This document shows, piece by piece, positions 8,266 through 29,032 of a stretch of DNA of 46,776 nt. This DNA is from Phycisphaerae bacterium. GTDB taxonomy: Bacteria; Planctomycetota; Phycisphaerae; Sedimentisphaerales; Anaerohalosphaeraceae. A model generated the notes under the pieces. The model searched no databases, was not told the origin of the DNA, and saw only the letters and a list, made by a program, of their open reading frames with translations. The stretch is taken from NCBI GenBank assembly GCA_012517095.1, contig JAAYVQ010000157.1, positions 1-46,776 of the forward strand. Direction: 5' to 3'. The translations under genes and the position numbers were made by a program. Within the stretch, counting starts at the first letter, position 1. The number at the start of each line of letters is the position of its first letter.

Positions 8266-8943
8266 TCAGAGCTTGGCCTGCGGATGGCTGAACCGCAATC
8301 CATCGCCGTCATGGTAAGTCGCATATTCGGTTACGATAGCACCCTGGGGGCCGGCCTTCATCCAATGCCATTGCTCGGCTCCGGCAAGCATTCCGACCTG
8401 ACCCGGAAGGATGAGTTGTTCCTTCCGAGCTTTGCAGCATTCGCGATGGGTCGGAGGAATCCGTGCCTCGACACCCTGGGTTGCGTCACCCTCGCCGTAA
8501 ATGTGGATCAATCCGTGTCGGACATGCCAACCTTCCATTTTCGGGCCGGCCTTTTCCGTCTTGAGGTGGCGATGTTCGGGAATCGACTGGCCGGGTAACA
8601 AGTAGATCTCGTGGCCAAAGTAGTTGTGTTCCTGGTGGTTCACCCAGAAGATTCCGGCCATTCCGATTTCGGCGAATTGACCCATTCCGAAATCGATCGC
8701 CCAGAATTCATCACTGCGAAGACGATCCGGAATGGGGTACTTATAGTAATTCATCATGTCATAATATGCTTTTTTCGCTTTGTCGGCGTTGAACTTTCCA
8801 TCGGAATAAAAGTAACTGTTGTCATGCTGAAATTTAGGTTTCGCTGCCATTGAAAACGTCTCCTGTTTACTGCATCCACTGGAGGCAATCATTACTGCGC
8901 CGACCGCCCCGCCGATTAATTGTCGCCGATTCAATTCCATCAT
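8266..8943 (-). CDS. Tat-exported cupin, D-lyxose ketol-isomerase-like
   Basis: The start at 8943 is supported by AAGGAG three bases upstream; the next codon at 8940 is also ATG. A longer frame from 8967 would begin at the stop of the aldolase gene. The N-terminus ELNRRQLIGGAVGAVMIASSGC is a twin-arginine signal ending in a lipobox-like SSGC, so the enzyme may be a periplasmic lipoprotein. The rest (about 185 aa) resembles the cupin sugar isomerases of the D-lyxose isomerase group: HEIYLLPGQSIPEHRH (metal histidines and glutamate), KMEGWHVRHGLIHIYGEGD, and a later AEQWHW carrying another metal-ligand-like histidine. Members convert an aldose to a ketose with a divalent metal. It is the last gene of the DhaK-DhaL-LsrF operon. 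The exact sugar is unknown, and an exported isomerase is odd. Confidence 0.75.
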   Translation of the reverse strand: MMELNRRQLIGGAVGAVMIASSGCSKQETFSMAAKPKFQHDNSYFYSDGKFNADKAKKAYYDMMNYYKYPIPDRLRSDEFWAIDFGMGQFAEIGMAGIFWVNHQEHNYFGHEIYLLPGQSIPEHRHLKTEKAGPKMEGWHVRHGLIHIYGEGDATQGVEARIPPTHRECCKARKEQLILPGQVGMLAGAEQWHWMKAGPQGAIVTEYATYHDGDGLRFSHPQAKL

Positions 8944-8966
8944 GATCTCCTTGTGTCCTGTATCCA

Positions 8967-9872
8967 TCAGGATTTTCCCTTTTTCTTCCTGGCCCGGTCG
9001 CTACTGAGATCGTTGAACATCGCAAATGCCTTTTGCGGCGACAGCATCTCATGCACAACGGCGTGTACGGCCTGTACCATCGCCACCGGATCTTCGGCTA
9101 GGAAAATATTACGACCCATATCCACGCCCGCGGCACCCTGGTCCACCGCCTTATACGCCATAGTCAGGGCCTCCAGTTCGGGTAATTTTTTCCCTCCGGC
9201 GATGACAACCGGAATCGGACAACCCGCAACAACCTCGTCGAAACCCTGCTCACAATAGTAAGTTTTGACGAAATGGGCTCCCAGTTCGGCAATCACACGA
9301 GTGGCCAGTCCCAGGTACCGGCTGTCACGGGTTAGTTCACGCCCTACCGCTGTTACTCCGAGGGTCGGAACCCCATAGGAATTGCCCTGATTGATCAGAT
9401 AAGCCAAGTTCGCCAGAGTCTCTTTTTCATAGGGACCGCCGATATAGACCTGCGTGGTCACGGCAGAGGCATTCAGACGGATCGCCTCTTCGACCGTCAC
9501 TCCGATGACTTCGTTGGATAATTCCTTGAGGATTGTCGCACCCGTGCTGCACCGAAGAACGATTGGTTTATTGGTCGTCGGCGGAATACAGGTTCTCAAG
9601 GCCCCCCTCGTCCCCATCAGGCAATCGACATAGTCGGCCAGCGGCGCGATCGCCAGGTCCATTCTCTCAAGACCCGAGGTCGGTCCCATGATGTAACCGT
9701 GATCGAAGGCCAGCATGACTGTCCGGCCGGTTTTGGGATGAAAAATCCGACTCAGTCGGTCCTTCATCCCCCAATCCAGATGACTGCTGCCTTTCAGGAA
9801 ATAGTCACCGGTCTTTTGCGGGATGTCCACAGAAAAATTTTTTGTTTCGACAGTTGAATCCTTATCCGGCAT
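8967..9872 (-). CDS. LsrF-like class I aldolase/thiolase
   Basis: The 301-residue protein matches E. coli LsrF (3-hydroxy-5-phosphonooxypentane-2,4-dione thiolase, 291 aa) nearly end to end: PQKTGDYFLKGSSHLDWGMKDRLSRIF near the N-terminus, TVMLAFDHGY, GPTSGLERMD, KTYYCEQGF, VIAGGKKLPE and GVDMGRNIF. The Schiff-base lysine is K203, the same number as in LsrF. I chose the ATG at 9872, which overlaps the end of the DhaL gene by 11 bases and has AAGGAG inside that gene, nine bases upstream; a longer frame from 9932 has no support. There are no lsrACDB, lsrK or lsrR genes nearby, so autoinducer-2 breakdown is not obvious. In this operon it more likely cleaves a phosphorylated ketose. Confidence 0.85.
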   Translation of the reverse strand: MPDKDSTVETKNFSVDIPQKTGDYFLKGSSHLDWGMKDRLSRIFHPKTGRTVMLAFDHGYIMGPTSGLERMDLAIAPLADYVDCLMGTRGALRTCIPPTTNKPIVLRCSTGATILKELSNEVIGVTVEEAIRLNASAVTTQVYIGGPYEKETLANLAYLINQGNSYGVPTLGVTAVGRELTRDSRYLGLATRVIAELGAHFVKTYYCEQGFDEVVAGCPIPVVIAGGKKLPELEALTMAYKAVDQGAAGVDMGRNIFLAEDPVAMVQAVHAVVHEMLSPQKAFAMFNDLSSDRARKKKGKS

Positions 9873-10503
9873 GGGAATTGACTCCTTCAGCAAAACCTTT
9901 AAAAAGCAATGAAACCGAGGTTGCTCCGGCATCGGGATGACCCATCGCGGCGGCCCCGAGATTTTTCGCCCGGCCGAACCGCGGCTGCATCGCTTGTGTG
10001 GCCTGGGCCCCTCTGGCTGCGGCAGCCGCCGCCGTTTGGAGGGCTATGGAAATGCTCTGATTCTGTTGGGCGGCAGCTCTGAGAGTGTCGACCGCCGGGA
10101 TAAGGGCATCAACAAGGGTTTTATCACCAACTTTGGCTTGTGTCAGTGTCGAAAGATTCTGCCATCCGGCTTCAAACATTGCGGCAAGCGCCTGAATATC
10201 TGCCTGATTAGTTGCCGGCGCCTTCTCGGCCATCCCCGAAAAGAAACTCCCCAGCAGAGGGCCAGTCGCTCCGCCATCGACACCCATAATCGCCCAACCG
10301 ATGTTATTGAGCAAATCCCCCAAAGAACCATTGGTCGTCTGGTTGATCCCCTTTTCGAGGCAACCCATCGCCCGCAGCATCGTTGTGCCGTGATCGCCGT
10401 CGCCTCCGAAAGAATCAAGCTTGGAGAGCATCGGATGATTGGCCTGAATCTCTTGAATGGCCTGTCGGAACATTTTCACAAAATCGCCATATCCAAGCTT
10501 CAT
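9862..10503 (-). CDS. dhaL: Dihydroxyacetone kinase L subunit-like (ADP/ATP-binding)
   Basis: This 213-residue all-helical protein is the nucleotide-binding partner of the DhaK-like subunit. LDSFGGDGDHGTTM contains the three Mg-coordinating aspartates at D30, D35 and D37, the same positions as in E. coli DhaL. GGATGPLLGSFF and KVGDKTLVDALIPA are further family motifs, and the C-terminal GHPDAGATSVSLLF closes the barrel. No DhaM or other PTS protein is encoded here, and in family terms a DhaK/DhaL pair with no phosphotransfer partner suggests the two use ATP directly, as in the fused eukaryotic and Citrobacter enzymes or in erythrulose kinases. It starts 12 bases after the DhaK gene ends and overlaps the aldolase gene by 11 bases. 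Confidence 0.88.
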   Translation of the reverse strand: MKLGYGDFVKMFRQAIQEIQANHPMLSKLDSFGGDGDHGTTMLRAMGCLEKGINQTTNGSLGDLLNNIGWAIMGVDGGATGPLLGSFFSGMAEKAPATNQADIQALAAMFEAGWQNLSTLTQAKVGDKTLVDALIPAVDTLRAAAQQNQSISIALQTAAAAAARGAQATQAMQPRFGRAKNLGAAAMGHPDAGATSVSLLFKGFAEGVNSHAG

Positions 10504-10515
10504 CGCTGCGGATTC

Positions 10516-11517
10516 CTATCGAACGGTAAAGGCCGGACTGTCACACGGCGCATCCCACAGATCGAGCAGTTCTTTGTCCATCTTGGCCGCGAACATCTGA
10601 AAACCACCCATTTCCTGCACGGTCAGGTATTCGCCGACCAGTGATCGAACCAGCTTGATCTTCTTGTCCTTGAGAACCTGCTCAACCCGACGCAGGACCA
10701 AGTACATCTCCATCAGCGTCGTCGATCCAACGCCGTTGATCATGACCAGCAATTCATCACCGGCCTTGACCCGGAGGTCATTGACCAGCAACTCGATCAT
10801 AATCTCGGCCGTACGGTCCGCCGAGGCCAACGGTTGTTCGCCGCTGCCCGCCTCGCCGTGCTGGCCCATGCCTACCACCATTCGCCCTTCCGGTAACTCT
10901 GCGATAACCGCGCCGGTACAGGGATGCGTCGCTCCGGAAACGGCCACAGCCAGAGTAGCCATATTCCGCTCTATCCGTTCGGCCACCGCCACGCATTGAT
11001 CAAGGGAATACCCTTTCTCCGCCGCAGCTCCCGCGATCTTGATCACCGGAAAACACCCCACAAGCCCGCGACGATCTTTCGGATCCTGGCGGCTCGGCAC
11101 CGAGATATCCTCGTGTGTCAGGATCTGTTTGACATTCAGGTTTTCTTTTTTGGCCATTTGCATCGCGACAGTGGCGCTGAGCACATCGCCAGCGTGGTTC
11201 AGTACCACCAGCAGAACACCGGCCTTACGATTAACCAACCGCAAAGCTTCGATCAGACGGGGCGGACCGGGGGCAGCAAAAATCTCGCCGGGAACGGACA
11301 CATCCAGCATTCCGAAACCGACAAAACCGCTCAAGGCCGGTTCATGACCGCTGCCGCCCAGCGTGACGACCGCCACCTTGTCGGCACTTTTTGCGTGGCA
11401 ACGGACTACCAGGTTGCTTCCGGCCAACTTGACCTTTGCGGCGTTGGCCAAAACGAATCCTTCCAGAAGTTCCGCGACCAGTTGGTCCGGGGCATTGATG
11501 AATTTTTTCATCGCCAT
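10516..11517 (-). CDS. dhaK: Dihydroxyacetone kinase K subunit-like (ketose-binding)
   Basis: The 333-residue protein has both DhaK domains. GGSGHEP at 54-60 is the phosphate/substrate loop. H58, D111 (in NHAGD) and H220 (in GMGQHGEAG) match E. coli DhaK H56, D109 and H218; the last forms a hemiaminal with the ketone of the substrate. So the chemistry (covalent capture of a short ketose and phosphorylation with the DhaL-bound nucleotide) should be intact. The start has AAGGAT upstream, and the gene follows the VOC gene by 22 bases. In this context with an aldose isomerase and an aldolase, the substrate is likely a 4- to 6-carbon ketose or erythrulose rather than dihydroxyacetone; this is inference. 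Confidence 0.88.
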   Translation of the reverse strand: MAMKKFINAPDQLVAELLEGFVLANAAKVKLAGSNLVVRCHAKSADKVAVVTLGGSGHEPALSGFVGFGMLDVSVPGEIFAAPGPPRLIEALRLVNRKAGVLLVVLNHAGDVLSATVAMQMAKKENLNVKQILTHEDISVPSRQDPKDRRGLVGCFPVIKIAGAAAEKGYSLDQCVAVAERIERNMATLAVAVSGATHPCTGAVIAELPEGRMVVGMGQHGEAGSGEQPLASADRTAEIMIELLVNDLRVKAGDELLVMINGVGSTTLMEMYLVLRRVEQVLKDKKIKLVRSLVGEYLTVQEMGGFQMFAAKMDKELLDLWDAPCDSPAFTVR

Positions 11518-11539
11518 AGAAGATCCTTATTGGATGAAA

Positions 11540-11860
11540 TTACTCTTTCATTTCCATCACTTCCATCAGCGCATCGCCGTCCTTGATGAAAGCCACTCGC
11601 AATGTAGGGGAGACTTCCATCGGAGGCAGGATCACCTGCTTGCCCTTGATCGCCTCATCAAGACTGGGGACGACAAACGCGGCATGTGGAGTTTTCTTGA
11701 TGGGGTCGGGCATGGGACTGTCGGGAGTAAATCGCAAAAACTCCACCGAATAGGGGTGACTTTCGGGATCGGTGATATAGACCCCTGCATCTTCAAGAAA
11801 GGTTTCCTTGCTGCCCTTGACGGTCGTTGGTACTCCGAAATGATGAAATTTGGCCTTCAT
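11540..11860 (-). CDS. Glyoxalase/VOC-fold small protein
   Basis: This is the first gene of the sugar operon, 106 residues. It has a VOC (vicinal oxygen chelate) pattern: KFHHFGVPTT at the N-terminus with a metal-type histidine, YITDPESHPYSVEFLRF in the middle, PHAAFVVPSLDEAI with a second histidine, and VAFIKDGDALMEVMEM with a terminal glutamate. That H...H...E spacing over two beta-alpha-beta-beta-beta modules is what single VOC subunits show. It may epimerise, isomerise or lyase a small keto-sugar or its phosphate. The protein is soluble and cytosolic; no signal peptide is present. It carries its own good promoter (11905-11932), which makes it the entry point of a five-gene transcript. Confidence 0.7.
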   Translation of the reverse strand: MKAKFHHFGVPTTVKGSKETFLEDAGVYITDPESHPYSVEFLRFTPDSPMPDPIKKTPHAAFVVPSLDEAIKGKQVILPPMEVSPTLRVAFIKDGDALMEVMEMKE

Positions 11861-11904
11861 CGTCGTTCCTTTCCATAGGTTTCGTCAATCCAACAGGTTT
11901 GGTC

Positions 11905-11932
11905 ATTATAGTCTGGATCACGCGAAATGCAA
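11905..11932 (-). promoter_or_regulatory. Promoter of the VOC-DhaK-DhaL-LsrF-cupin operon
   Basis: On the minus strand, TTGCAT (11927-11932), a 16-base spacer and a perfect TATAAT (11905-11910). Transcription would start near 11898 and leave a leader of under 40 bases before the start at 11860. Confidence 0.75.
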
Positions 11933-11963
11933 GGTTCAAATCCATCTTGGAACAGGTCAAACC

Positions 11964-11992
11964 TTGAACACTCCTGAAGCGTAAGGTACAAT
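11964..11992 (+). promoter_or_regulatory. Promoter of the hydroxypyruvate-isomerase-like gene
   Basis: TTGAAC at 11964-11969, a 17-base spacer and TACAAT at 11987-11992. It points away from the operon promoter at 11905-11932, with 31 bases between the two -35 boxes, so one regulator could act on both directions. Confidence 0.7.
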
Positions 11993-12025
11993 GGACCTAA
12001 ACCATAATGCTCGAAAGGATATTCC

Positions 12026-12910
12026 ATGGATCATACAAAACAGAATCCACAGGCGGATTTAACGCGTCGGGATTTGCTGGCCGGCATGGCCGGGGCCACT
12101 GTCCTGGGTATGTCCGGGACATCGCTGGCACAGGACAAGGCCGGCGTGAAAAACGGTAAGATCAAACAATCCGTCTGCCAATGGTGTTACGGGAAAGTCG
12201 ATTTTGAAACGCTGGCCGCGCACGCCGCCAAAATCGGTCTGAAGGGATTCGACCTGGCGGGACCCGATCAATGGGCGGCTCTGAAAAAACACGGCCTGAT
12301 CTGTACGATGACGCCCACCCATGGCATCACCAAAGGCCTAAACCGTAAACAAAACCATGAGGAATGCCTGAGTATCATCCGAAAACGAATCGAAGAGACG
12401 GCCCAGGCCGGTTTTCCAAATGTCATTTGCTTTTCCGGAAATCGCGAAGGCATGGACGACGCTGAAGGCATGAATACCTGTGTTGAGGCCCTCAAGCAGG
12501 TTGCCAAGCTTGCGGAGGAAAAGAAGGTCACGATCTGCATGGAGCTTCTCAACTCCAAGGTCAACCACAAGGACTACATGTGCGACCGCACCGCCTGGGG
12601 CGCCGAGATGTGTAAGAAAGTCGGATCTCCGCGGGTCAAACTTCTGTACGATATCTACCACATGCAGGTCCAGGAAGGCGATGTCATCGCCACGATTCGC
12701 AAATATTCCGAGTACATCGGCCACTATCACACTGCCGGCGTTCCCGGCCGTAACGAAATGGACCTCACTCAGGAGTTAAACTACCCCGCCATCGTCAAGG
12801 CCATTATTGATACCAGGTTCGACGGCTACATGGGCCAGGAATTCATCCCGAAAAAACCGGATGCACTCAAGTCGCTGACCGAGATGGTTGAACTATGTGA
12901 TGTGGCCTGA
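12026..12910 (+). CDS. Tat-exported hydroxypyruvate isomerase-like TIM-barrel protein
   Basis: The 294-residue protein starts with a twin-arginine signal (LTRRDLLAGMAGATVLGMSGTSLAQ) and then a xylose-isomerase-like TIM barrel. It fits the hydroxypyruvate isomerase (Hyi/YgbM/OtnI) group: QSVCQWCYGKVDFETLAAHAAKIG at strand 1, VICFSGNREG, and the metal ligands in CMELLNSK (Glu), LLYDIYHMQVQEGD (Asp and His), and GYMGQEFIP (Glu). IGHYHTAGVPGRNE carries the remaining His and the substrate loop. The family shifts a carbonyl between C1 and C2 of 3- to 4-carbon keto acids or of erythrulose/threose-type sugars. It is divergent from the DhaK-type operon, so the two may share a substrate. An exported version is typical of planctomycetes, where the real role is not known. 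Confidence 0.8.
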   Translation: MDHTKQNPQADLTRRDLLAGMAGATVLGMSGTSLAQDKAGVKNGKIKQSVCQWCYGKVDFETLAAHAAKIGLKGFDLAGPDQWAALKKHGLICTMTPTHGITKGLNRKQNHEECLSIIRKRIEETAQAGFPNVICFSGNREGMDDAEGMNTCVEALKQVAKLAEEKKVTICMELLNSKVNHKDYMCDRTAWGAEMCKKVGSPRVKLLYDIYHMQVQEGDVIATIRKYSEYIGHYHTAGVPGRNEMDLTQELNYPAIVKAIIDTRFDGYMGQEFIPKKPDALKSLTEMVELCDVA

Positions 12911-12943
12911 CGGATCGTATTGTCCATGGATTGAACGCTATGG

Positions 12944-12974
12944 CCTCCCGGATTGAATTTCCGGGAGGTTTTTT
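12944..12974 (+). terminator. Intrinsic terminator after the hydroxypyruvate-isomerase-like gene
   Basis: CCTCCCGGA and TCCGGGAGG pair perfectly over nine bases around a 7-base loop (12953-12959), and six Ts follow at 12969-12974. The element lies 34 bases after the stop codon. Confidence 0.95.
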
Positions 12975-13040: not shown

Positions 13041-13781
13041 ATGAAATCGTTATTCCTTGTCATCGTACCCGTCACACTATTGATCGTGTCCGGATGCAAA
13101 TCCGAACGGCCGGAATTGTCTAAACCAACCCCGGGTACTTCGGTATCAACATCCGACCCTGGACCGGAAAAGATAGTAGTACCCGAAAAACCAAAGGAAA
13201 CTCTGGAGGCCCCCGAAACAACGGAAAAAGAGATGGTTCTCTTTGACGGAAAACAGATGGGGCAATGGGTTCCCGCTGAATATGTGGAAGGCGGTAAGGT
13301 CGAACTCAAAGACAGCATGATTGTCATCGAAAAGGGAAATGATATGACCGGCATCAAATGGACCGGACCCCTTATGCGGATGAATTACGAATTGACGCTG
13401 GAGGCCATGCGCATCGACGGCGAGGATTTCTTTTGCGGCCTGACATTTCCCTATGGCAACGCCCCCTGCACGCTGATTTGTGGCGGCTGGGGGGGATCGC
13501 TGGTCGGCCTGTCCAATATCGATTACTACGATGCGGCCAACAACCAGACCTGCACCAGCAGGACCTTTGAGAATGGAAAGTGGTATCCGATTCGTTTGCG
13601 CGTTACATCAGACAAAATCGAAGCATGGATCGAGGGTGACGACAAGATCATTGACTTTGAAACAGCCGATCACAAGATCGGAATCCGTTTTGAAGTCTCA
13701 CCCTGTAAACCCCTGGGCATCGCGACATGGCGTACAACGGGGGCTGTCCGAAATATCAAAGTCGTCCGGATCACTCCATAG
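13041..13781 (+). CDS. DUF1080 (3-keto-disaccharide-hydrolase-like) lipoprotein
   Basis: The start at 13041 follows AGGAG, with a lipoprotein signal MKSLFLVIVPVTLLIVSGC whose C19 would be lipidated. Residues 20-75 are a Pro/Thr/Glu-rich linker. Residues 77-246 form a jelly-roll domain of the DUF1080 kind: MVLFDGKQMGQW, then a 'GKVELKDSMIVIEKG' strand, INYELTLEAMRIDGEDFFCGLTF-like core strands, SNIDYYDAANNQT and NGKWYPIRLRVTSDKIEAWIEG. The family includes 3-keto-glucoside hydrolases and many sugar-binding members, and is strongly enlarged in planctomycetes. It would sit in the cell envelope on the periplasmic side. Its last 11 bases overlap the last 11 bases of the convergent release-factor-like gene. 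Confidence 0.8.
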   Translation: MKSLFLVIVPVTLLIVSGCKSERPELSKPTPGTSVSTSDPGPEKIVVPEKPKETLEAPETTEKEMVLFDGKQMGQWVPAEYVEGGKVELKDSMIVIEKGNDMTGIKWTGPLMRMNYELTLEAMRIDGEDFFCGLTFPYGNAPCTLICGGWGGSLVGLSNIDYYDAANNQTCTSRTFENGKWYPIRLRVTSDKIEAWIEGDDKIIDFETADHKIGIRFEVSPCKPLGIATWRTTGAVRNIKVVRITP

Positions 13782-19703: not shown

Positions 19704-22700
19704 TTATTCTCTCTCCGGAATAAAAATATCCTGTGCATCGATGGACCAATACGGCATGAAACCCTCAGCGAAAAGGACTTTAAGTTTGTAGAGTTCCAGC
19801 GACCAGACGTTCGGCTCACCTGAAACGGGAGCTGTCAACTGAACCTCATATCGCCCCACATCTTCAAAATCCACGAACTTCTGGACCGTCGAAACGATTC
19901 GTCCCATCGAATCATACAGGGCCGCCCTGTGAAAACCTTCCCCCATCACCTCAAAGCGGATTTTGACTTCTTTTATCCCCGGCCTTAAGCAGCCGTATGC
20001 CCGTGGCAATAGACTCGCTAACTGCGTGTGTCTGGGGTCGACCACCGTCAGTTTGCATCGGCCGTCCCACTGGACTTGCCAAGCGTAGGCATCGCGACTT
20101 TCGCAGCGCAAACGATAGATGCCCGGCCCCGACAACAAAAGCGAATCGGCTTCGAACATCCTGCGGTCGTTGGCAAAGGTTTTCTCCACAAGGGATTTCC
20201 CCCGCAGATCGTCGATGGTGATCTTGCCCTGTGCCAGTCCTTCTCGAATCAACAGGATGGGAGCGGACACATTCCACTCAACCTTCAGGTACATCTCCGC
20301 GGCGGGATTGACAAAGCGGATCGCCTTCCAACTCGCCACTTCCGGCATTGCTTTGGGGGGCTCTTCGAACACCGGAAACAATCCATATCGCGCCGCGAAG
20401 GCCGGGAACATCCACGCGTGCGTTTCTTCCGCGACGCTATCGCGGTCGTGCAGGAATTCCATCGAACTGATCCACGACCGCTCCATCGCGTCGAGGTACC
20501 GCCCGTCCGGCTTTCGGCCCAGAATCCAACTGAAGGCATTGAGCGTCCGGCAGGCGTACTCCGGATACATCCCCAGCGTACGGTTGGCCACACGATCAAT
20601 CGCCTCGGCGAGTGTGTTGTCGCCGGAAAGCTGTTGTACCGTCAGCATCCCATTCATCGCAATGCCGTTGAAAAACGCAATCCGATTGTCCCAGCGGATC
20701 TTGAATTTGCCTGTCGGCGATTGGCCCTCGATGAGCCGGTTGCAGGCCGTTGTCGCCGCTTCGAGAATCTCGGGATTGCCCGTCACTTCATACAGTCCGC
20801 TGAGGGCATACAACGACCAACCAATCTGTCGTTCATTACCCAGTCCCTCGCCGCGTTCGAGTTGGCCGGCGATCCACTTGCCGATCTTCTCGGCGGTTTC
20901 GAGACTGCGGATCTCACCCGTCAGCAGATAATGCAGCAGCAGGCCCCGGATAAACACATGCCCCAGCTCAGCCTGCGTCGTCGTGTGTTGGGGGCTGTGT
21001 TTCCACTGGAATCCCGCGGCGTTTTCGGTGTCGATGTCGGCCTGGTGCCGCACCATCACTTCGGCCTGGTTCAGGTACCATACATCCCCGGTCCGCAGAA
21101 ACTGCATCAGGAAATTCCACGGTATATCATATTCCAGGTCCATGTACGCATTCTTGCCCTTGTATGGCCCGCCCATGTACCCGTCGCCGAAATCCCGGAA
21201 GCCAAACGGCATACCATTGACGAATTGCTGCATGTCGATCTGCCGTCGCGCCTCCCAATACGGCAACGATTCAAGCGACTCAGGGGTTCGCGGCATCAGC
21301 GCCCCCGCCGCTTTTGTCCCGCACACCCACGCCGGAGGAATCACCGCCCGCAACGGGTCCAGATGCATTGTCTCGGGTTTGTCCAGTGACATCTCCAAAA
21401 CCACCTCGTGCGTCTTGGCCAAGCCCCCTTCCCACTCGAAGGGTTCCTTGCCTGCCCACAACCGAACGCCGAAATTGTCTTTGGATACAAAGAGCTGCTT
21501 GGGACAATTCTGCCAGAAATGCCGCAGGCCGAATTTCGTCCATCGTCCATTGGCTTGTACCCCCAGCCAGCCGGGGCTTCGCGTTCCCTCGATGGGTTTT
21601 TGCCCCGGCCGCTCGATCGTATAGTGCAACTCATCCGGCTGATCGAGCACAACCTCGCTATCGACCGGAACATCGACCACACCCGATTCCGATCCAAATC
21701 GTACGGCCGTGATCTCCCCCGCCGGCCGAAAGACCCAGCGAATGTCCTTGACCTTCACGACTGGATTCGGCGTCTCATACGGTTGTTTTCGTGCTACTGC
21801 ATGCGTTACCGTTAAACACATCCGCATCTGCGGACCCTCACGCATCAGTTCAGTTTGAAGAGTATAATGAAATCCAGTAGGTTTATGATCTGAATCGACA
21901 AGGGTACCCCCCTGCTCATCTTTCAACATATTTGCAGAAGGTGTTATCCGATGATTTTCGTCCTGAAGGGATTGCCATTGCTCGGACCCAGACTCGGTCT
22001 GAACCTTCATCAACAAATCGGTTTCTTTAAAAAGAACCTGATCCTTATCACCCTCCCATACTGAACAGAGCGGTCCCGGTAGCGGTTTGACTTTGATGTT
22101 GGTAACCGGCCAGGGCTTAAACCACGATGCAAGTATCTTCGCTGGGTCGATAGTCTCTGTAGTCGAAACATTCGTTTCGGTAACTTCAGAATTGTTGATT
22201 TCCAGGGTCCGTGTTTCACCCGCATTTGCATCGTATTCTGCTAATAGCCAACGGATCGAACCATCGGGCCATTGGGAAAGGATCTTGACCTGAAGAGATG
22301 CTGGATTTCGCGATGAATCAAGCAATTGAATCATTTTCGGATTACAGAACATCCCTTCCGGCAATGGAAAGCCGGTCCGTACCAATCCCTTCTGTCTCGG
22401 GACGCCGACGATGGTGATCGGGATTCGGCGTGATTCCTTGAGTTTGTCGAATTCGGTCTCGAAAGAAAGTTTTCGCGGCGGGCGAAGGGAAGTATCCAAT
22501 CGCTTTTCCGCCTCCGCAATTACCGCTATCGGATCATACGGCGGCGATTGGCCCGGCAAGTCCTTTACACAGCGAAAACCGACAAAGTCGTGCGCCCCAT
22601 ACGGAACCAGCCGCGCACGCTGCGTACAGGTCCCGGTGTTCGGCACGCCATAGAGATACACTCCCCCCCCGCCGCGGATGACCTTGTATTGCTGGCCAAA

Positions 22701-23321
22701 GTGCGGGCTCCTCGCCGAAGTCCCCGGATAGCCCTCGAACCAGTCGGCCGTCCATTCCCACGCGTTACCCGACATGTCGAGGCACCCAAACGGTGAAGCT
22801 CCTGTCGGAAACTGGCCGACAGGCCGGAGCTTTTCAGAGTCGAGATTGCGCCTGGCTGGATCGTCCACATTGCCCCATGGAAAGAGCCGACCGTCGGTCC
22901 CCCGAGCGGCCTTTTCCCATTCCGCCTCGGTTGGCAGTCGTTTGCCTGCCCAGGCCGCATATCGCATCGCGTCCAGCCAGGTGAGATTGGTCATCGGAAG
23001 TTTGTCGCGTCCGGCCGGGGGCTTTCCTTCGGCCCAGTCAGCCGGTGCCGCGGCCCCGGTGGCCGCAATATACCGCGCGTACTGCTCGACGGTGACCTCT
23101 TCGGCATCGATGTAGAAGGTGGGTATCTCGACCGAGTGCGGCGGCGTCTCCTCGGCGGCGCCGAGATTTGAGCCCATGACAAACGGCCCGGACGGGATCA
23201 GAACCATCCGTGAGCCATCCGAAGTTACGCTCTCCTTTGCCGCAATCGCAACCTCTGTGGATGGTGTAGCCGAAACCGCGGAACATACATACGCCGCAAG
23301 AATGACGATCCAAAATCGCAT
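19704..23321 (-). CDS. Secreted fusion of a SUMF1-type domain and a PcRGLX/YetA-like (PL26-like) lyase region
   Basis: I chose the ATG at 23321 (GGGAG five bases upstream, signal peptide MRFWIVILAAYVCSAVSA), giving 1205 residues. Residues about 35-255 are a formylglycine-generating-enzyme-like (SUMF1) domain: MVLIPSGPFVMGS, EVTVEQYARYIAATG, RLPTEAEWEKAARG, SGNAWEWTADW and GFRCVKD. The C-terminal cysteine pair of true FGE is missing (only one Cys in GTCTQRAR), so it is probably a binding domain. Residues about 295-1100 match the exo-rhamnogalacturonan lyase (PcRGLX/YetA) layout: RIFT barrel (PITIVGVPRQKGLVRTGFPLPEG), beta-sandwich (GWLGVQANGRWTKFGLRHFWQNCPKQL), then an alpha/alpha toroid with AWMFPAFAARYG. 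Rhamnogalacturonan-type pectin is the likely target. It has its own promoter at 23385-23412. Confidence 0.8.
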   Translation of the reverse strand: MRFWIVILAAYVCSAVSATPSTEVAIAAKESVTSDGSRMVLIPSGPFVMGSNLGAAEETPPHSVEIPTFYIDAEEVTVEQYARYIAATGAAAPADWAEGKPPAGRDKLPMTNLTWLDAMRYAAWAGKRLPTEAEWEKAARGTDGRLFPWGNVDDPARRNLDSEKLRPVGQFPTGASPFGCLDMSGNAWEWTADWFEGYPGTSARSPHFGQQYKVIRGGGGVYLYGVPNTGTCTQRARLVPYGAHDFVGFRCVKDLPGQSPPYDPIAVIAEAEKRLDTSLRPPRKLSFETEFDKLKESRRIPITIVGVPRQKGLVRTGFPLPEGMFCNPKMIQLLDSSRNPASLQVKILSQWPDGSIRWLLAEYDANAGETRTLEINNSEVTETNVSTTETIDPAKILASWFKPWPVTNIKVKPLPGPLCSVWEGDKDQVLFKETDLLMKVQTESGSEQWQSLQDENHRITPSANMLKDEQGGTLVDSDHKPTGFHYTLQTELMREGPQMRMCLTVTHAVARKQPYETPNPVVKVKDIRWVFRPAGEITAVRFGSESGVVDVPVDSEVVLDQPDELHYTIERPGQKPIEGTRSPGWLGVQANGRWTKFGLRHFWQNCPKQLFVSKDNFGVRLWAGKEPFEWEGGLAKTHEVVLEMSLDKPETMHLDPLRAVIPPAWVCGTKAAGALMPRTPESLESLPYWEARRQIDMQQFVNGMPFGFRDFGDGYMGGPYKGKNAYMDLEYDIPWNFLMQFLRTGDVWYLNQAEVMVRHQADIDTENAAGFQWKHSPQHTTTQAELGHVFIRGLLLHYLLTGEIRSLETAEKIGKWIAGQLERGEGLGNERQIGWSLYALSGLYEVTGNPEILEAATTACNRLIEGQSPTGKFKIRWDNRIAFFNGIAMNGMLTVQQLSGDNTLAEAIDRVANRTLGMYPEYACRTLNAFSWILGRKPDGRYLDAMERSWISSMEFLHDRDSVAEETHAWMFPAFAARYGLFPVFEEPPKAMPEVASWKAIRFVNPAAEMYLKVEWNVSAPILLIREGLAQGKITIDDLRGKSLVEKTFANDRRMFEADSLLLSGPGIYRLRCESRDAYAWQVQWDGRCKLTVVDPRHTQLASLLPRAYGCLRPGIKEVKIRFEVMGEGFHRAALYDSMGRIVSTVQKFVDFEDVGRYEVQLTAPVSGEPNVWSLELYKLKVLFAEGFMPYWSIDAQDIFIPERE

Positions 23322-23384
23322 ACGATCTCCCGTTGCTGGTCGAGATTGATTTCCTTCGGACACTCTCCCCACACCCAGCCAGTC

Positions 23385-23546: not shown

Positions 23547-25700
23547 TTACTCAACCATGTTATCCTTGAGCCAATCAGCTGCAAAGATGAGGAGGTCCGG
23601 CACATCGACAACGCAGTTTCCATTGAAGTCATACGCAGGACCGGTACCCTTCACGCAACCAGTCGGGTTGGCATCCAGATACAATGCCGCGATCTCCTGA
23701 TCCGACAGGGCATAGTTGTAAATCCGCGCCTCATCGACCCATCCACGGAAGAGTGCGGTCTGATTAGAAGGAGCCCGCTTTCCGATGTGGACGATATCCT
23801 GCGTCTGCAGTTGCTGACCTGTCGCCTGACCGGTATAGACGCCATCAAGATACCACTTGACGATCCGAGTGGCCGGATCATAGCTGGCTACCAGGAAGTG
23901 CCATGTACCGTCCATGGGGGCAAAGCCCCAGTCGCCACCATACCGCGTGATGCAATATTGGGCATTACCGCCGTACTTATTGAAGTCGAAGACATACTCG
24001 TTGGCGGAGGTTGTGCTGGTAAATCCGAAAACATTGCACCAGTTGCCAACTTCGGCAGCAGGAACGGCGTTCTTTGCCCAGCAGGCAATCGTCCGCGGCG
24101 AATTATTCCCGACACCTGTCGGGCTGAAACCCGTCATGAACGGCGCGGCCAATCGGGCATACTGCGAGTTGGTTGTGCCAGCGATGTTGACGGCAAGAGC
24201 ATTGCCCTTCATTCCCGGTTCAAACACAGGGGCCGAGGCGTCGGTGGAGTAATAAGTACCCGGCAACAGATTACCCGTGTCATCGGCCAGATCCTCATCC
24301 AACGGCCAGTAAGCCACCAACTTCTTCGCCGGTTCAACCTTGGTGAAAAATCCCCAGGTTGGACCTGTGGTGATCGTGGGTTGTCCACCTGGCGTCTCAT
24401 TGGGTTCGGAAACATCGACGCGCCACTGATAGGCCTTATCGACAACCAGTTCGGGATCATACGAGGTTTGGGTACCTTCGGCCACCTTGACCAGGGTTTT
24501 TCCGGCCTCGGCAAAATATACCACATTGGTGAAATTCGTCTTGCCAACCGGATTGGACCAAGTCAGCACGGCATCCACCGGCACATACATCTTATTGTGC
24601 GGATAGGGCGCACAGGCAGTTTTTGCCGAGTAGATCGCCTCCATCGGGATTTCCTTCCACGGAATCGTGGAGGTACGATAGTTCACCTGGAGGATATCAC
24701 CGCCGCCGTCTTCGAACATCTCGACAACGATTCCGGCATAACCGGCGGGCAATTCAATACTGCCATACCGCCACTGACCACCATGCCAGCCGTCGTTGTT
24801 GACCACGAGGGTCAGCGGGCCGCTTTCCCACCAGTTGCCGATATACAGCTTGCTGCCGTCATCGGAGGTGGTTCCAAAGGTATAGAGATCGGCCACATCA
24901 ACCTTGATGATACCGTACTGGCGGTAGACATAGTCATCCGTTTGGGCAGGCATATTAACCCAGAATTTGGCCATGGTCCCCGTCGATGTCGGAGGTGTGG
25001 TGATCGTCGAGAAATCGGGCATGATACCATTGATGATCCCCAATTCGGAAACATCGGTGGCCGCTTTCCAATACTGGTATTCCACCGCACCGACATTGGT
25101 ATACGGATGAACCAGATCCACCGGACAGGTGTTGGACACATAGGCCATCGGAACCAGAGTTGTGGTGGTTACGCCGGCCTCGGCGCACTGGAAACCGACG
25201 CCACAACCATCGCCGCCGCCGCCTTCACTCCAGGCAGCCCAGAAATAGTAGGGCTGATTGGCTTTCAACGGAAGCCATCCCGACGGTACGATATCGGCAT
25301 CTCCAAAATCATTCTGGCCTGTCCAGCCGTTTTCTGTGGCAATCTTCACCGCACCGGCCGGGTTCTCGCTGGTGCTCAGCCACAACTCGGCATAATCATC
25401 GGCCGCAATCCAGAACTTGTAGTTCCCATCAATCGGGGGAATCATCCAACCCTCAAAACGCGCGGCATAGTTTCCGCCGTTTTCCCAACTCGGTGTCGTA
25501 AGACCCGCTGGAGAACCACTTCCGGCATAGGCGTAATTGGTACTCGTCGGCGGCGTCGTGAAATTGCGCGTGTACGCCCGGACCGTCGTCGTCCCATTAC
25601 CATCATCCCACCGATGATAAATCATCTTGCCACGCTCGGCCGAGACAACCCCGGCAAGTCCCATACTGACTAACATGACTAAAATGAGCAATTTCTTCAT
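23547..25700 (-). CDS. Secreted PA14-PA14-LamG protein with a C-terminal half-dockerin
   Basis: The ATG at 25700 has GGAGGA eight bases upstream and a signal peptide (MKKLLILVMLVSMGLAGVVSA); the protein has 717 residues. The first part (about 25-180) is PA14-like (NYAARFEGWMIPPIDGNYKFWIAADDYAELWL). A second PA14-like unit follows at about 190-345 (GIIKVDVADLYTFGTTSDDGSKLYI). Residues 350-450 form a FN3-like repeat (TNVVYFAEAGK...YQWRVDVSEP). A LamG/concanavalin domain spans about 460-675 (AYWPLDEDLADDTG, WVDEARIYNYALS). The last 30 residues (YDFNGNCVVDVPDLLIFAADWL) are one dockerin-like EF repeat; a full dockerin has two. No enzymatic motif was found. It probably binds polysaccharide outside the cell. 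It is read with the next gene, 62 bases upstream. Confidence 0.8.
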   Translation of the reverse strand: MKKLLILVMLVSMGLAGVVSAERGKMIYHRWDDGNGTTTVRAYTRNFTTPPTSTNYAYAGSGSPAGLTTPSWENGGNYAARFEGWMIPPIDGNYKFWIAADDYAELWLSTSENPAGAVKIATENGWTGQNDFGDADIVPSGWLPLKANQPYYFWAAWSEGGGGDGCGVGFQCAEAGVTTTTLVPMAYVSNTCPVDLVHPYTNVGAVEYQYWKAATDVSELGIINGIMPDFSTITTPPTSTGTMAKFWVNMPAQTDDYVYRQYGIIKVDVADLYTFGTTSDDGSKLYIGNWWESGPLTLVVNNDGWHGGQWRYGSIELPAGYAGIVVEMFEDGGGDILQVNYRTSTIPWKEIPMEAIYSAKTACAPYPHNKMYVPVDAVLTWSNPVGKTNFTNVVYFAEAGKTLVKVAEGTQTSYDPELVVDKAYQWRVDVSEPNETPGGQPTITTGPTWGFFTKVEPAKKLVAYWPLDEDLADDTGNLLPGTYYSTDASAPVFEPGMKGNALAVNIAGTTNSQYARLAAPFMTGFSPTGVGNNSPRTIACWAKNAVPAAEVGNWCNVFGFTSTTSANEYVFDFNKYGGNAQYCITRYGGDWGFAPMDGTWHFLVASYDPATRIVKWYLDGVYTGQATGQQLQTQDIVHIGKRAPSNQTALFRGWVDEARIYNYALSDQEIAALYLDANPTGCVKGTGPAYDFNGNCVVDVPDLLIFAADWLKDNMVE

Positions 25701-25762
25701 TGTAATGTTCCTCCGCAAATTCGATTCATTAGTATTCATCCTAATTTCGGACTTTGGGGTTG

Positions 25763-28700
25763 TTATAGACTGCTCTTGGCCCACTCAGCCGCAAACAAGC
25801 TGAAATCGTTCAGATCGACCGCGCAGTCTCCGTCAAGGTCGCCCGTCAGGGCCTTATAGCAAATCGATCCAGGATAGACCCCCTGATACAGGCCAACCGC
25901 TTCTTCCGGAGTCAACGCATAGTTGTACAGACGGAAGTCGTCGATATACCCCTGGAAGCGGTTCACATCGTTGTTATACCGACCGAGGACAAAGTTGGCC
26001 CCATTGTCGGTATTCAGGGTAACGGCATAATCCACGACGAGTTTACCATTGGCGTAGAGCTTGCTTCGGACACCATCGTGTACCAGAACAAAGTGAACCC
26101 AGGTGTTATAGCTGGGGATCACCGCAGTATCCGCATCGGCCGCATAGTACTGAACGCGCCAGGTTCCTTCGGTGGCCGCCATCGTTCGCAGGCAGAAATT
26201 CTGCCGTTCGGCATAAGCACCCACATCAAACAGACCGCCATCATTAAAGGCCTGTGCCTTGGCCCAGACGCTGACGGTTCTCGGGAAGTTTCCGGAAATA
26301 CCGAGTTCCATCGGCTTTTTGTTGGTGGTGATATAGGCGTTGTTCGGGTCGTTGGGGCCAAGCAACTTGATGGCCTTGCCAAGCCCGATACCGCCATCGG
26401 CCAAGCTGTAATACGGAGCAGAGCCGCCCGCCGGGCAGATCAGCGTGCCATCAAAATTACTGGCCGACTGATCCGGAACGATATTGGTGCCTTCGATGGA
26501 CTCGAAAGTATAGTGCAGCATCAGACGATGGGTCAGCAACAGGCCGTTCGAGGAGCTGGTCGGACCGACGGTGTTGGTGACGACGCAGTGGTAATACCCT
26601 TCATTGGCCAGTTGAACATTCGCCACAGCCAACGGGCAATCATAATTGCCATCGACATCCGGGCCGATCGGAACGCCTTCGTAGATCTTTGTCTCGCCGA
26701 AGAACCACTCGTACTTGACCATTGGAACCAGATCGGGAACGGTCGCGGTCGAGGCCTTGACCGTCAGGTTAGCCGTCGCACCGGCATTGACCACGGTCAA
26801 TGGAGCGACATCTGTCCGAATCTGCGGGTACTGTTTGACGGTGTCAAAGGTCCAGACATCTCCAGTCGCCGTGGTTGTACCAACCACAGTATCGACTCTC
26901 CAGTAGATGGTCTCATTGAACGGCAGGTTATTGGCGGGAAGCGTGAATTCGGTCACATCCGGATCCGTCTGACCATACAAAGTCATCGAATCCGCGGACA
27001 AGCCGCCATAGACCTTGTAATAGCCGCCGCAGGGCGCCGCATCGGATTTGGTCCAGGTCACCTTCAGATCCTTCGTGGGATCGACCCACCCTTCCGGTGT
27101 CAACGGATCATACACCGGATTGGTCGGCTGCCAGAAGGTAAGGCCGGCAAACGACGCACTAACATTGTCAAACACGCTGGTGTTTAAGGCACCCGTACTG
27201 TGAGCACAAACCGCCAGACCCGCATACACATTGGCTCCCATTGAAATCGTCACGGAACCGTGCTGCGCCCAGTTGACACCATCGGCCGAATAATATCCCG
27301 TGAAAGTATTGCCCGAACGGGTAATACGAACCCATTGGGGAGCATGCAGGTTGGGCGAACCGCCGGCAGCGGCACCACCCCCGGTCGAGGTACGATATTG
27401 GAAAATGTCGGCGGCGCCGTTGGAAGAGGGAATTACCGGCATGATGGCATAGGTGGAATTGGCATTCAGGGTTTCACGGATCATGACACCCGACTTGCTC
27501 CACCCGTCCGTGTTCGTGGTATTCAAACTGACAACACGGGCCGAGATTGAACCGTCTCCGGACACCGGAACATAGGCATATTCGAAACCATCGGCCGTAT
27601 TCCAGATGTCATCGCCGGAACCGATTACGGTGAAGGTGTTTCCGCTCCGGGTCATCCCAACACCCGGTTGATTGCCAGTCCCGATTGCAACCGCAGTCAG
27701 GTTCGGAGTCCCGGAGTACATCAAGAATCGAACTTCGGTGCTCTTGGTCATTCCATTCTTATTGCTGACTTCGACCCAATAGGTATTGGGATCATTCTTC
27801 GCCGGGATCAATTGAGAATACGACGAGGAGAAGATCTCCGGATCCGCCGTTGCCACACCCGCTTCGGTTTTCAGCGTGGTGCCATCGGCTTTCTTCCAGA
27901 CAAAGGTCATGTCGCCCTGGTCCGCATAATCGCCGGATTTGGCCTCGACCGTCATTGTCGCCAGGCAGTTCACTGCGACCGAAGTATCGGTGGGTTGCTT
28001 GGTAATGATGGGCCGGGCCGACTTGGTCGTAAAGGACCACCAGAAGCCCCGGGCCACATCCGAATTGACCGTATTGGTGGCATCGACGCGCCAGTAATAG
28101 GTCTTGCCCGCTTCCAGCGTCGGGCTGTTGATCTGCCGCGTGGGCTCGGTCACGGTGCCAATCAGCACAACATTTGGATCATGCGGAGAAGAACCAAAAT
28201 AGACTTTCCAGTCCTTGATGTATCCGCCGGCTTCCGGATACGGAATGGCGCCCCAGGACAACTGCACCGGTCCGGGGTAGTCCACATTCAGTTCGCCTTT
28301 GGCGGGAACAGGAGAAGCCGCGCCATAGTTGAACTGGATGGTGTCAAACACCGCAATGGACAATGAAGCAGCATTGTGCGGGCAGGAAGCCAGACCGATG
28401 TACAACGGGTCGGTCAAGGCCATACTGAGATTGCCCGCCAGCTCGGCATTTCCGGTCATCCAGGTCCATTCCACACCATCCTGAGAATAATACCCGTTAA
28501 AAATGTTCCCGACACGGGTCATTCGGAGATACACCGGCTGGTAGTAACTGGCACCCGACTGGTTGCCGAGGATATAGGTTTGAGGATCCGTCGGCGGATC
28601 TGCCGGCCTGCGGCATTGCCAGGAGATTCCATTGTTCGGCTGCGCAGAATCACCATGCGCGGTTGCGGCAATCAAAGCATAGGGCGAAGCCCCGCTGGTG

Positions 28701-29032
28701 TCGATGTTCTGTCGAACCATGATCCCCGCTTTGGACCAGCCATCCCCCGTGTTGGAGGTTGTGAAATTCTGCAAACAGCAGGAAATATCAAAATCACCGG
28801 AAATCTGCATATAGGCATATTGGAACGCGTCATTGGTGTTCCAGATGTCATCGCCGGTACCCTTGACCGTGTAGGTATTCCCATCGCCGCTGACATCGAC
28901 GCCATAACCTGGGTTCGTCCCGGTTGTGCCGATCTTGATCCCGGTCAGGACCGGCGTACCGAACGCGGTCCCCAGACCGACTCCGCTACTGGCCAGTCCA
29001 ATCACCAACAACATAATTAAGACTTTTTTCAT
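25763..29032 (-). CDS. Secreted multidomain protein: two DUF1349, FN3, Ig, LamG and a half-dockerin
   Basis: The protein has 1089 residues and a signal peptide (MKKVLIMLLVIGLASSGVGLG); the GGAGGA before the start lies in a leader like that of the next gene. Residues 30-235 and about 445-650 are two DUF1349/concanavalin-type domains: each has GDDIWNT, a 'GWSKAGIMVR' or 'GWSKSGVMIR' core and a GYYSxDGVxW strand. Each is followed by an FN3-like unit (WRVDATNT; YWRVDTVVG) and an Ig-like unit (WKKADGTTLKTEAG...; WFFGETKIYEGV). A LamG domain spans about 860-1040, and GDLDGDCAVDLNDFSLFAAEWA closes as a half-dockerin. The double domain set shows internal duplication. No catalytic residues were found; a polysaccharide-binding or surface role is likely. 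Confidence 0.82.
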   Translation of the reverse strand: MKKVLIMLLVIGLASSGVGLGTAFGTPVLTGIKIGTTGTNPGYGVDVSGDGNTYTVKGTGDDIWNTNDAFQYAYMQISGDFDISCCLQNFTTSNTGDGWSKAGIMVRQNIDTSGASPYALIAATAHGDSAQPNNGISWQCRRPADPPTDPQTYILGNQSGASYYQPVYLRMTRVGNIFNGYYSQDGVEWTWMTGNAELAGNLSMALTDPLYIGLASCPHNAASLSIAVFDTIQFNYGAASPVPAKGELNVDYPGPVQLSWGAIPYPEAGGYIKDWKVYFGSSPHDPNVVLIGTVTEPTRQINSPTLEAGKTYYWRVDATNTVNSDVARGFWWSFTTKSARPIITKQPTDTSVAVNCLATMTVEAKSGDYADQGDMTFVWKKADGTTLKTEAGVATADPEIFSSSYSQLIPAKNDPNTYWVEVSNKNGMTKSTEVRFLMYSGTPNLTAVAIGTGNQPGVGMTRSGNTFTVIGSGDDIWNTADGFEYAYVPVSGDGSISARVVSLNTTNTDGWSKSGVMIRETLNANSTYAIMPVIPSSNGAADIFQYRTSTGGGAAAGGSPNLHAPQWVRITRSGNTFTGYYSADGVNWAQHGSVTISMGANVYAGLAVCAHSTGALNTSVFDNVSASFAGLTFWQPTNPVYDPLTPEGWVDPTKDLKVTWTKSDAAPCGGYYKVYGGLSADSMTLYGQTDPDVTEFTLPANNLPFNETIYWRVDTVVGTTTATGDVWTFDTVKQYPQIRTDVAPLTVVNAGATANLTVKASTATVPDLVPMVKYEWFFGETKIYEGVPIGPDVDGNYDCPLAVANVQLANEGYYHCVVTNTVGPTSSSNGLLLTHRLMLHYTFESIEGTNIVPDQSASNFDGTLICPAGGSAPYYSLADGGIGLGKAIKLLGPNDPNNAYITTNKKPMELGISGNFPRTVSVWAKAQAFNDGGLFDVGAYAERQNFCLRTMAATEGTWRVQYYAADADTAVIPSYNTWVHFVLVHDGVRSKLYANGKLVVDYAVTLNTDNGANFVLGRYNNDVNRFQGYIDDFRLYNYALTPEEAVGLYQGVYPGSICYKALTGDLDGDCAVDLNDFSLFAAEWAKSSL

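Follow-up and report, generated by a model that had tools for sequence, protein, structure and literature searches.

What does a bacterium break down with an operon that joins a DhaK- and DhaL-type kinase to an LsrF-type enzyme, and adds to these a VOC-fold protein and a cupin of the D-lyxose isomerase type? The question is raised by a locus within a 46,776-nucleotide stretch of DNA from a Phycisphaerae bacterium (the window). To us the locus looks like an undescribed breakdown route for an unusual keto-sugar. Its features are listed below.

8266 to 8943, minus strand: D-lyxose-isomerase-type cupin with a Tat lipoprotein-like leader (NRRQLIGG...SSGC; open reading frame to 8967)
8967 to 9872, minus strand: LsrF-type class I aldolase/thiolase (open reading frame extends to 9932; NF006081, 452.6 bits)
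9862 to 10503, minus strand: DhaL-type nucleotide-binding kinase subunit (PF02734, 5e-44; D30/D35/D37 intact)
10516 to 11517, minus strand: DhaK-type ketose-binding kinase subunit of a divergent clade (PF02733, 1.6e-101; PDB alignment; 83 sequences)
11540 to 11860, minus strand: VOC-fold protein of 106 aa, candidate isomerase/epimerase (putative metal site H7/E40/H59/E100)
11905 to 11932, minus strand: putative sigma-70-type operon promoter (-35 TTGCAT at 11932-11927, 16-bp spacer, -10 TATAAT at 11910-11905)
11964 to 11992, plus strand: putative divergent promoter of the TIM-barrel gene (TTGAAC-N17-TACAAT, a scan match)
12026 to 12910, plus strand: xylose-isomerase-like TIM barrel with a Tat leader (PF01261, 2.5e-28; PDB)
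12942 to 12970, plus strand: terminator-like hairpin and T run between the TIM-barrel and DUF1080 genes (11-pair stem)
13041 to 13781, plus strand: lipoprotein of the DUF1080 (3-keto-disaccharide hydrolase) family (PF06439, 5.8e-08, above cut-off)

The VOC, DhaK, DhaL, LsrF and cupin genes form a real five-gene operon on the minus strand, running from 11860 to 8266. A first, sequence-only reading of this DNA had claimed gaps or overlaps of 11 to 24 bases, and the measured values agree with it, namely 22 bp (VOC/DhaK), 12 bp (DhaK/DhaL), about 23 bp (LsrF to the probable cupin start at 8943) and an 11-bp overlap of DhaL and LsrF, with the LsrF start set at M21 (9872). LsrF residues are numbered here from M21, which gives K203 and D251; counted along the long open reading frame, K203 becomes K223. 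A single promoter had also been claimed, and the putative element TTGCAT-N16-TATAAT supports it, being matched once in the window against 0.01 expected and recurring at the equivalent position in the sister species (locus L048), where the spacer has diverged. A consensus promoter scan of the window returned nothing above chance and missed the operon promoter. The L048 counterpart of the putative TIM-barrel promoter reads TTGATC...TACAAT.

The same reading had made its proposal depend on the genes staying together in related genomes, and DhaK, DhaL and LsrF are indeed found together in 30 of 30 complete neighbourhoods. This core occurs in at least six phyla, mostly in uncultured degraders of complex carbohydrate, and the VOC protein and cupin are joined to it mainly in Planctomycetota, Hydrogenedentota and Verrucomicrobiota/Lentisphaerota. 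The divergent DhaK clade and LsrF co-occur in all 11 genomes that carry the former, and LsrF was found in only 4 of 48 others.

The kinase pair carries the signature of the DAK kinase superfamily, consisting of the His/Asp/His of DhaK (H58, D111 and H220, equivalent to E. coli H56, D109 and H218) and the Asp triad of DhaL, all three residues of which are kept in 68 of 68 sequences. The catalytic residues earlier listed for DhaK, DhaL and LsrF are invariant or nearly so among 68 to 83 relatives. Against TIGR02363, the equivalog of PTS-dependent DhaK, the protein scores 311.8 bits, below the cut-off of 406.25. Throughout the clade A82, L106 and H108 replace S80, K104 and Y106 of E. coli DhaK, and given that the changes of S80 to A and K104 to L lie next to the catalytic residues (82 of 83 sequences), a ketose other than dihydroxyacetone (DHA) is the likely substrate. 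DhaM, reported as missing at the locus, was detected in none of 59 related genomes while the positive controls were, and ATP is for this reason the probable phosphate donor. Ordinary DHA or glycerol metabolism, with LsrF and the cupin as unrelated passengers, would account for the DhaK and DhaL families and their catalytic residues, but with no DhaM, altered pocket residues and an LsrF bound to this DhaK clade only, we consider it most improbable.

LuxS was likewise found in 0 of the 59 genomes (positive controls detected); its absence argues against AI-2 signalling, and that of DhaM against a PTS-driven metabolism of DHA. Neither the window nor any of 80 neighbourhoods contained a linked set of LsrK, LsrR, LsrACDB and LsrG; an FGGY kinase above the LsrK cut-off was found in 0 of 11 module genomes, control genomes also falling below that cut-off. 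The earlier view that the module stands apart from both DHA metabolism and AI-2 signalling is supported, in the first case by the missing DhaM and the altered DhaK pocket, in the second by the missing LuxS.

The LsrF protein shares 55.7% identity with its E. coli counterpart, which branches among the LsrFs of module members, and scores above the cut-off of 297 for the LsrF thiolase equivalog. K203, Y205, D251, G226, G227 and G253 are invariant (71-72 sequences). Roles have been described for K203, D251 and the phosphate-binding glycines 226, 227 and 253, and the position of D251 is occupied by alanine in close aldolase homologues of LsrF (PMC2728841). E. coli LsrF is a CoA-dependent thiolase with DHAP and acetyl-CoA as products (PMC7828210). 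Enzymes of acyl-CoA or acyl-phosphate metabolism are linked to the module in 11 loci, representing about four independent events, and none occurs in the window itself. Given that LsrF is of the CoA-thiolase type, that D251 is kept and that such genes are linked elsewhere, thiolysis (keto-ketose 1-phosphate + CoA to DHAP + acyl-CoA) is tentatively favoured over a plain retro-aldol cleavage.

The only PDB matches of the cupin are D-lyxose isomerases (2y0o and 7nzo, 2e-16), with which it shares the fold and four metal ligands; H132, H134, E145 and H201 are invariant and align with H69, H71, E82 and H137 of 2y0o. It differs from these enzymes in its added Tat/Sec-like leader, and the similarity is at most about 30% and covers the cupin core only. 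As leaders of this kind, recognised by motif and by eye, are present in nearly all members (about 45 of 46 relatives), isomerisation probably takes place in the periplasm rather than as a cytosolic first step. The VOC protein has no Pfam match, its fold being assigned from an AlphaFold model (pLDDT 95.6) and Foldseek matches. H7, E40, H59 and E100 are invariant in 40 of 40 sequences, and with this 2-His/2-Glu site intact it is probably a pathway enzyme; its specific role, taken from fold and position, is a guess.

These results bear on the isomerase-kinase-aldolase route that had been read from the sequence, whereby DhaKL would phosphorylate an ordinary ketose at C1 and LsrF would cleave the product by retro-aldol reaction to DHAP and an aldehyde. 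Such a route makes a second carbonyl unnecessary and agrees with the class I aldolase fold and K203 of LsrF (PMC2728841), as well as with a lyxose-isomerase-type cupin whose metal ligands are intact. However, the cupin is exported, judging from its leader, LsrF is a thiolase equivalog with D251, acyl-CoA genes are linked and the VOC protein is left unexplained, and the route therefore appears rather unlikely to us. What survives of it is the formation and splitting of a ketose phosphate; the cytosolic first step probably does not, and the split into two simple fragments yields to the thiolysis favoured above.

The TIM barrel resembles hydroxypyruvate isomerase and D-psicose epimerase. This divergent gene was correctly placed at the control region, but it is an occasional partner outside the core, close to the module in five loci (the window, L048, L039, L093 and L109). 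The DUF1080 gene, probably transcribed on its own, adjoins the TIM barrel in L048 and L039 as well. Module genomes hold a median of 19 DUF1080 copies versus 7 (5.0 versus 2.1 per Mb, p = 9e-6), a density that we accept as support for 3-keto-sugars but reject as proof, since both genome size and common descent are confounding factors. Hydrazine-synthase-like proteins are encoded in the same operon as the sugar module in at least 16 loci, and other substrates have been suggested for the non-anammox members of this family (PMC10732223). Among isolates, Lentisphaerae bacterium WC36 and Planctomycetes bacterium CA13 carry the operon, which in CA13 includes hydrazine-synthase-like genes. The links to these proteins and to 3-keto-disaccharide hydrolases point to periplasmically oxidised sugars. 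A scan of 84 flanking proteins gave no signal of a common flanking gene naming the sugar, the commonest families having three members each (sulfatase, S9 peptidase and GFO/IDH/MocA) and DUF1080 two.

It could be argued that the module scavenges environmental AI-2 (DPD), DhaKL standing in for LsrK and the VOC protein for LsrG with LsrF unchanged, given that LsrF is very close to the E. coli enzyme and that a kinase, a small isomerase-like protein and LsrF form one set. We regard this as very improbable: neither LuxS nor a linked Lsr transporter is present, the operon encodes a sugar isomerase with an export leader, DhaK chemistry prefers a HOCH2-CO- group that DPD is missing, and the hydrazine-synthase-like and DUF1080 partners fit poorly.

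Our tentative proposal, to which we give somewhat less than an even chance, is that the operon serves sugar catabolism by turning a ketose with a second carbonyl into DHAP and an acyl-CoA. The exported cupin, aided in some species by the TIM barrel, would isomerise an oxidised sugar outside the cytoplasm, and the VOC protein may then adjust the position or configuration of a carbonyl, as LsrG does for phospho-AI-2. By analogy with their families, DhaK would hold the HOCH2-CO- end via H220 while DhaL transfers phosphate to C1, and LsrF, via K203 and D251, would cleave the 1-phosphate with CoA to DHAP and a short hydroxy-acyl-CoA. Genes linked elsewhere suggest that the acyl-CoA could be converted to the acid with gain of ATP or enter central metabolism. 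The second carbonyl could come from an SDR, which accompanies a second type of LsrF. Against the proposal, linked acyl-CoA enzymes are absent from the window and elsewhere few and partly related, and LsrF, as a member of an aldolase superfamily, could perform a retro-aldol reaction on another substrate. A more specific version, a terminal pathway for 3-keto-sugars, seems unlikely. Here, periplasmic oxidation of the sugar and an exported isomerase would give a 2,3-diulose, the VOC protein would shift the carbonyl to C4, DhaKL would phosphorylate C1 and LsrF would thiolyse the 2,4-diulose 1-phosphate to DHAP and a hydroxy-acyl-CoA yielding ATP, with the operonic hydrazine-synthase-like proteins of Hydrogenedentota as the sugar-oxidising complex.

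The acidobacterial loci have an accessory set of their own (ABM, SDR, lactonase and permease), and an ABM-superfamily protein is encoded directly downstream of DhaK-DhaL-LsrF in 12 of them. As an LsrG orthologue this protein was rejected: it and LsrG have no more than the superfamily in common (E = 0.19 against LsrG), and its closest match in the PDB is SO0527. Two pathways for different sugars, one in Acidobacteriota and one in PVC/Hydrogenedentota, may have been built on one core, as accessory sets track phylum, VOC/cupin and ABM never occur together in one locus, and a loop of LsrF has the sequence YFQG in 12 of 13 members from Acidobacteriota, as it does in the E. coli enzyme, against YIMG in 54 of 60 others. 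Phylogeny and function are nevertheless inseparable here, and we hold this division, which is compatible with the thiolysis model rather than opposed to it, to be quite improbable.

Apiosidase-like genes (PF13204 and similar) lie close to the module in most acidobacterial loci, and the same search gave no match from PVC or Hydrogenedentota loci. Apiose, named earlier among the candidate sugars, keeps this acidobacterial association but is chemically awkward for the enzyme set and was rejected as substrate: apulose phosphate lacks the second carbonyl that thiolysis requires, and formaldehyde would result from its cleavage by a retro-aldol reaction.

Several known systems share parts of this logic, and no description of the DhaK-DhaL-LsrF combination was found in the open-access literature searched. 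The Lsr system of E. coli and Salmonella (LsrK-LsrG-LsrF) has the same LsrF family and catalytic residues and likewise couples a kinase to LsrF, and acidobacterial modules also place an ABM-superfamily protein close behind LsrF; the module, however, uses DhaKL instead of the FGGY kinase LsrK, has no linked Lsr transporter, adds the VOC protein and exported cupin, and resides in genomes without LuxS. E. coli DhaKLM shares the DhaK and DhaL folds, the catalytic His/Asp/His and the Asp triad, whereas the module is not PTS-driven, has no DhaM, carries A, L and H for S80, K104 and Y106, and is always found with LsrF. In Mycobacterium, erythrulose kinases and tetritol pathways provide examples of DhaK-family kinases acting on ketoses larger than DHA. 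Erythrulose phosphate is isomerised there and LsrF has no part; the operon differs in having DhaK and DhaL as separate chains, together with LsrF. The L-fucose and L-rhamnose routes employ an isomerase, a kinase and a class II aldolase, with C1 phosphorylation and release of DHAP. The order of reactions is alike, but all three enzymes are unrelated, and in the module the isomerase is predicted to be exported and cleavage is probably CoA-dependent. With 3-keto-glycoside pathways the module has periplasmic sugar-isomerase-type proteins in common, and a DUF1080 gene adjoins it in this genus and in genome G010. Where such pathways with DUF1080 hydrolases were studied, 3-keto-glucose is reduced to glucose, and what becomes of 3-keto-galactose is described as unknown (PMC9007349, PMC10628242).

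If the proposal is true, LsrF thiolysis would be a general, energy-conserving way of opening keto-sugars, of which AI-2 degradation is one instance. The 3-keto-sugar reading, if true, would supply a fate for 3-keto-sugars and a role for the non-anammox hydrazine-synthase-like family, and the operon makes the function of these widespread proteins testable.

The window corresponds to contig 286 in a 4.26 Mb genome with 93.5% completeness. The operon and gene families first read from its sequence were confirmed, with five minus-strand genes lying head to tail and gaps or overlaps of 11-23 bases between neighbours:

8266-8943, minus strand, cupin
8967-9872, minus strand, LsrF
9862-10503, minus strand, DhaL
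10516-11517, minus strand, DhaK
11540-11860, minus strand, VOC protein
12026-12910, plus strand, xylose-isomerase-like TIM barrel, divergent from the five-gene set
12942-12970, terminator-like hairpin behind the TIM-barrel gene
13041-13781, DUF1080 lipoprotein gene, after the TIM barrel and hairpin

The VOC family, which no sequence library assigned, was identified from an AlphaFold model (pLDDT 95.6) and Foldseek; since H7, E40, H59 and E100 are invariant in 40/40 sequences, the protein is probably a metalloenzyme. Elsewhere, the window encodes a 1222-aa protein (19704-23372, minus) that begins with an FGE-sulfatase domain and also has a PcRGLX-like domain of rhamnogalacturonan-lyase type. 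Three very large, secreted-looking proteins (29795-35101, plus; 23547-25784 and 25763-29032, minus), two of which terminate in dockerin-like D-N-VD--D repeats, are, from their sequence, probably extracellular and carbohydrate-related.

A stock promoter scan of the minus strand returned nothing convincing. When the intergenic region was aligned with that of the sister species (mean column identity 82%), TTGCAT-N16-TATAAT was found to be retained although the spacer had diverged. An exact match is present at a single site in the window, against 0.01 expected, and again at the matching position in the sister-species locus L048, so that the single promoter proposed in the sequence-only reading is borne out as a putative one. 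TTGAAC-N17-TACAAT, before the divergent TIM-barrel gene, is likewise retained.

The window DhaK shares about 50-76% identity with relatives across many families, against 33-41% with other DhaKs of the same phylum, and belongs to a separate clade. We assembled 80 named loci from Hydrogenedentota, Planctomycetota, Acidobacteriota, Verrucomicrobiota, Lentisphaerota, Armatimonadota and single other groups. Among the 30 with both flanks long enough for gene-content counts, DhaL and LsrF are always present (30/30), the VOC gene in 16, the cupin in 15 and all five genes in 14. The proposed joint conservation therefore holds as linkage across relatives, but the invariant core comprises only DhaK-DhaL-LsrF. 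Among 59 related genomes, in counts that ignore phylogeny, LsrF occurs in 11/11 with this DhaK versus 4/48 without it, and those four carry an LsrF of different type. Two genomes (G014 and G019) have the module divided, with VOC-DhaK on one contig and DhaL-LsrF-cupin on another.

Catalytic residues are conserved throughout: DhaK H58 and H220 in 83/83 sequences and D111 in 82/83, the DhaL aspartates in 68/68, K203, Y205, D251 and the phosphate glycines of LsrF invariably, and the lyxose-isomerase ligand set in the cupin. E. coli DhaK S80 and K104, which we take to be dihydroxyacetone (DHA) ligands, are replaced by A82 and L106 in 82/83 sequences, and Y106 by H108 in the window DhaK. The window LsrF is 55.7% identical to that of E. 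coli, which groups inside acidobacterial members (support 0.997; midpoint-rooted tree, no outgroup). In the LsrF structure D251 lies 2.9 A from K203, and close aldolase homologues have alanine there (PMC2728841).

Nearly all cupins appear to carry a twin-arginine or hydrophobic leader: called by motif and inspection rather than by a predictor, about 36 have RRx[FLMVIY], 4 a variant twin arginine and 5 a Sec-like leader, with a short ORF as the remaining one. A Tat leader is also present on the TIM barrel, and a lipobox on the DUF1080 protein; kinase and LsrF have no leader. A plain cytosolic chain from aldose to ketose to ketose phosphate would not agree with an exported isomerase and a cytoplasmic kinase. 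The outline of that earlier interpretation stands, while its location and chemistry are wrong or incomplete.

The sugar phosphate could be cut by CoA-dependent thiolysis to DHAP and an acyl-CoA, or by retro-aldol cleavage to DHAP and an aldehyde. Characterised LsrF is a CoA thiolase yielding acetyl-CoA and DHAP (PMC7828210). Some module operons contain, or have nearby, enzymes that use or make acyl-CoA or acyl-phosphate: L115 has phosphotransacylase alongside an ACT protein, L090 a fusion of phosphotransacylase and acyl kinase, and L131 an acyl kinase and a phosphotransacylase; a SucC/SucD-type ligase follows LsrF in L107, L111 and L113. Multi-subunit 2-oxoacid:ferredoxin oxidoreductase genes, named POR-type from sequence, directly precede DhaK in L083, L085, L091 and L092 and lie farther off in L088, all five being Sedimentisphaerales-type loci. 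Once related loci are grouped, acyl-CoA/acyl-phosphate enzyme linkage has arisen about four times independently among the 80 loci, which suggests thiolysis without proving it. An ABM protein, of the same superfamily as LsrG but not LsrG itself, immediately follows DhaK-DhaL-LsrF in 12 acidobacterial loci. A second LsrF type from the same order, without DhaKL, has the loop YFQG, as in E. coli, against YIMG in the module type of PVC and Hydrogenedentota. It is coupled to an SDR (L148 9293-11040, L149 6529-9398, L151 6920-16680) and possibly marks another LsrF sugar pathway; in L151 the set extends to a kinase resembling rhamnulokinase and an Rpe-like epimerase. Such coupling would be expected if the ketose 1-phosphate cut by LsrF must carry a second carbonyl. 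This SDR is related to the RhaD C-terminal domain, and L151 also holds a RuBisCO-like (DK-MTP-1P enolase-like) protein. Because of the known thiolase activity, the linked acyl-CoA/acyl-phosphate genes, the adjacent ABM protein and the SDR coupling, we tentatively favour thiolysis and regard retro-aldol cleavage as somewhat less likely.

Each enzyme family is already known; for the gene combination, the kinase clade and its spread across phyla, we found no description in the open-access literature searched. The substrate is neither AI-2 made by these organisms, since LuxS is absent from 59 genomes, nor PTS-driven DHA, since no DhaM was found in them either. The TIM-barrel and DUF1080 genes adjoin the module in the window's genus and in one further genome (G010). 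DUF1080 is a family of 3-keto-disaccharide hydrolases (PMC9007349), twice as dense in module genomes as in others, a confounded comparison, and annotated sugar phosphate isomerases/epimerases, the annotation type of the window TIM barrel, can be 3-keto-glycoside eliminases or hydratases (PMC10628242). A giant hydrazine-synthase-alpha-like protein (PF18582, with an FGE-sulfatase domain in the one example scanned) stands in the operon chain of at least 16 loci (L066, L067, L069, L070, L073, L075-L077, L097, L125, L126, L129, L130, L136, L139, L140; also L040 and L042), 6 of which have a beta/gamma-like protein too. The hosts are non-anammox bacteria. As 20 module genomes hold 2-23 such alpha domains each, we estimate chance adjacency at about 1% or less; a possible activity of these proteins on other substrates has been proposed (PMC10732223). 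Together, the DUF1080, TIM-barrel and hydrazine-synthase-like links point to periplasmically oxidised sugars as a candidate class, with no single sugar named.

The acidobacterial version (e.g., L135, L133, L123, L105, L145) is accompanied by an SDR, an SMP-30-type lactonase, an APC-type permease, a BhcC-like PLP enzyme, an AraC regulator and apiosidase-like secreted proteins. In one unclassified bacterium (L117, 2677-19471) the module includes additional DhaK and VOC-like genes and lies between sugar ABC-transporter genes, together with a GFO/IDH/MocA-like gene and a regulator of SorC/DeoR-like type; the solute-binding protein of this locus might indicate which sugar is used.
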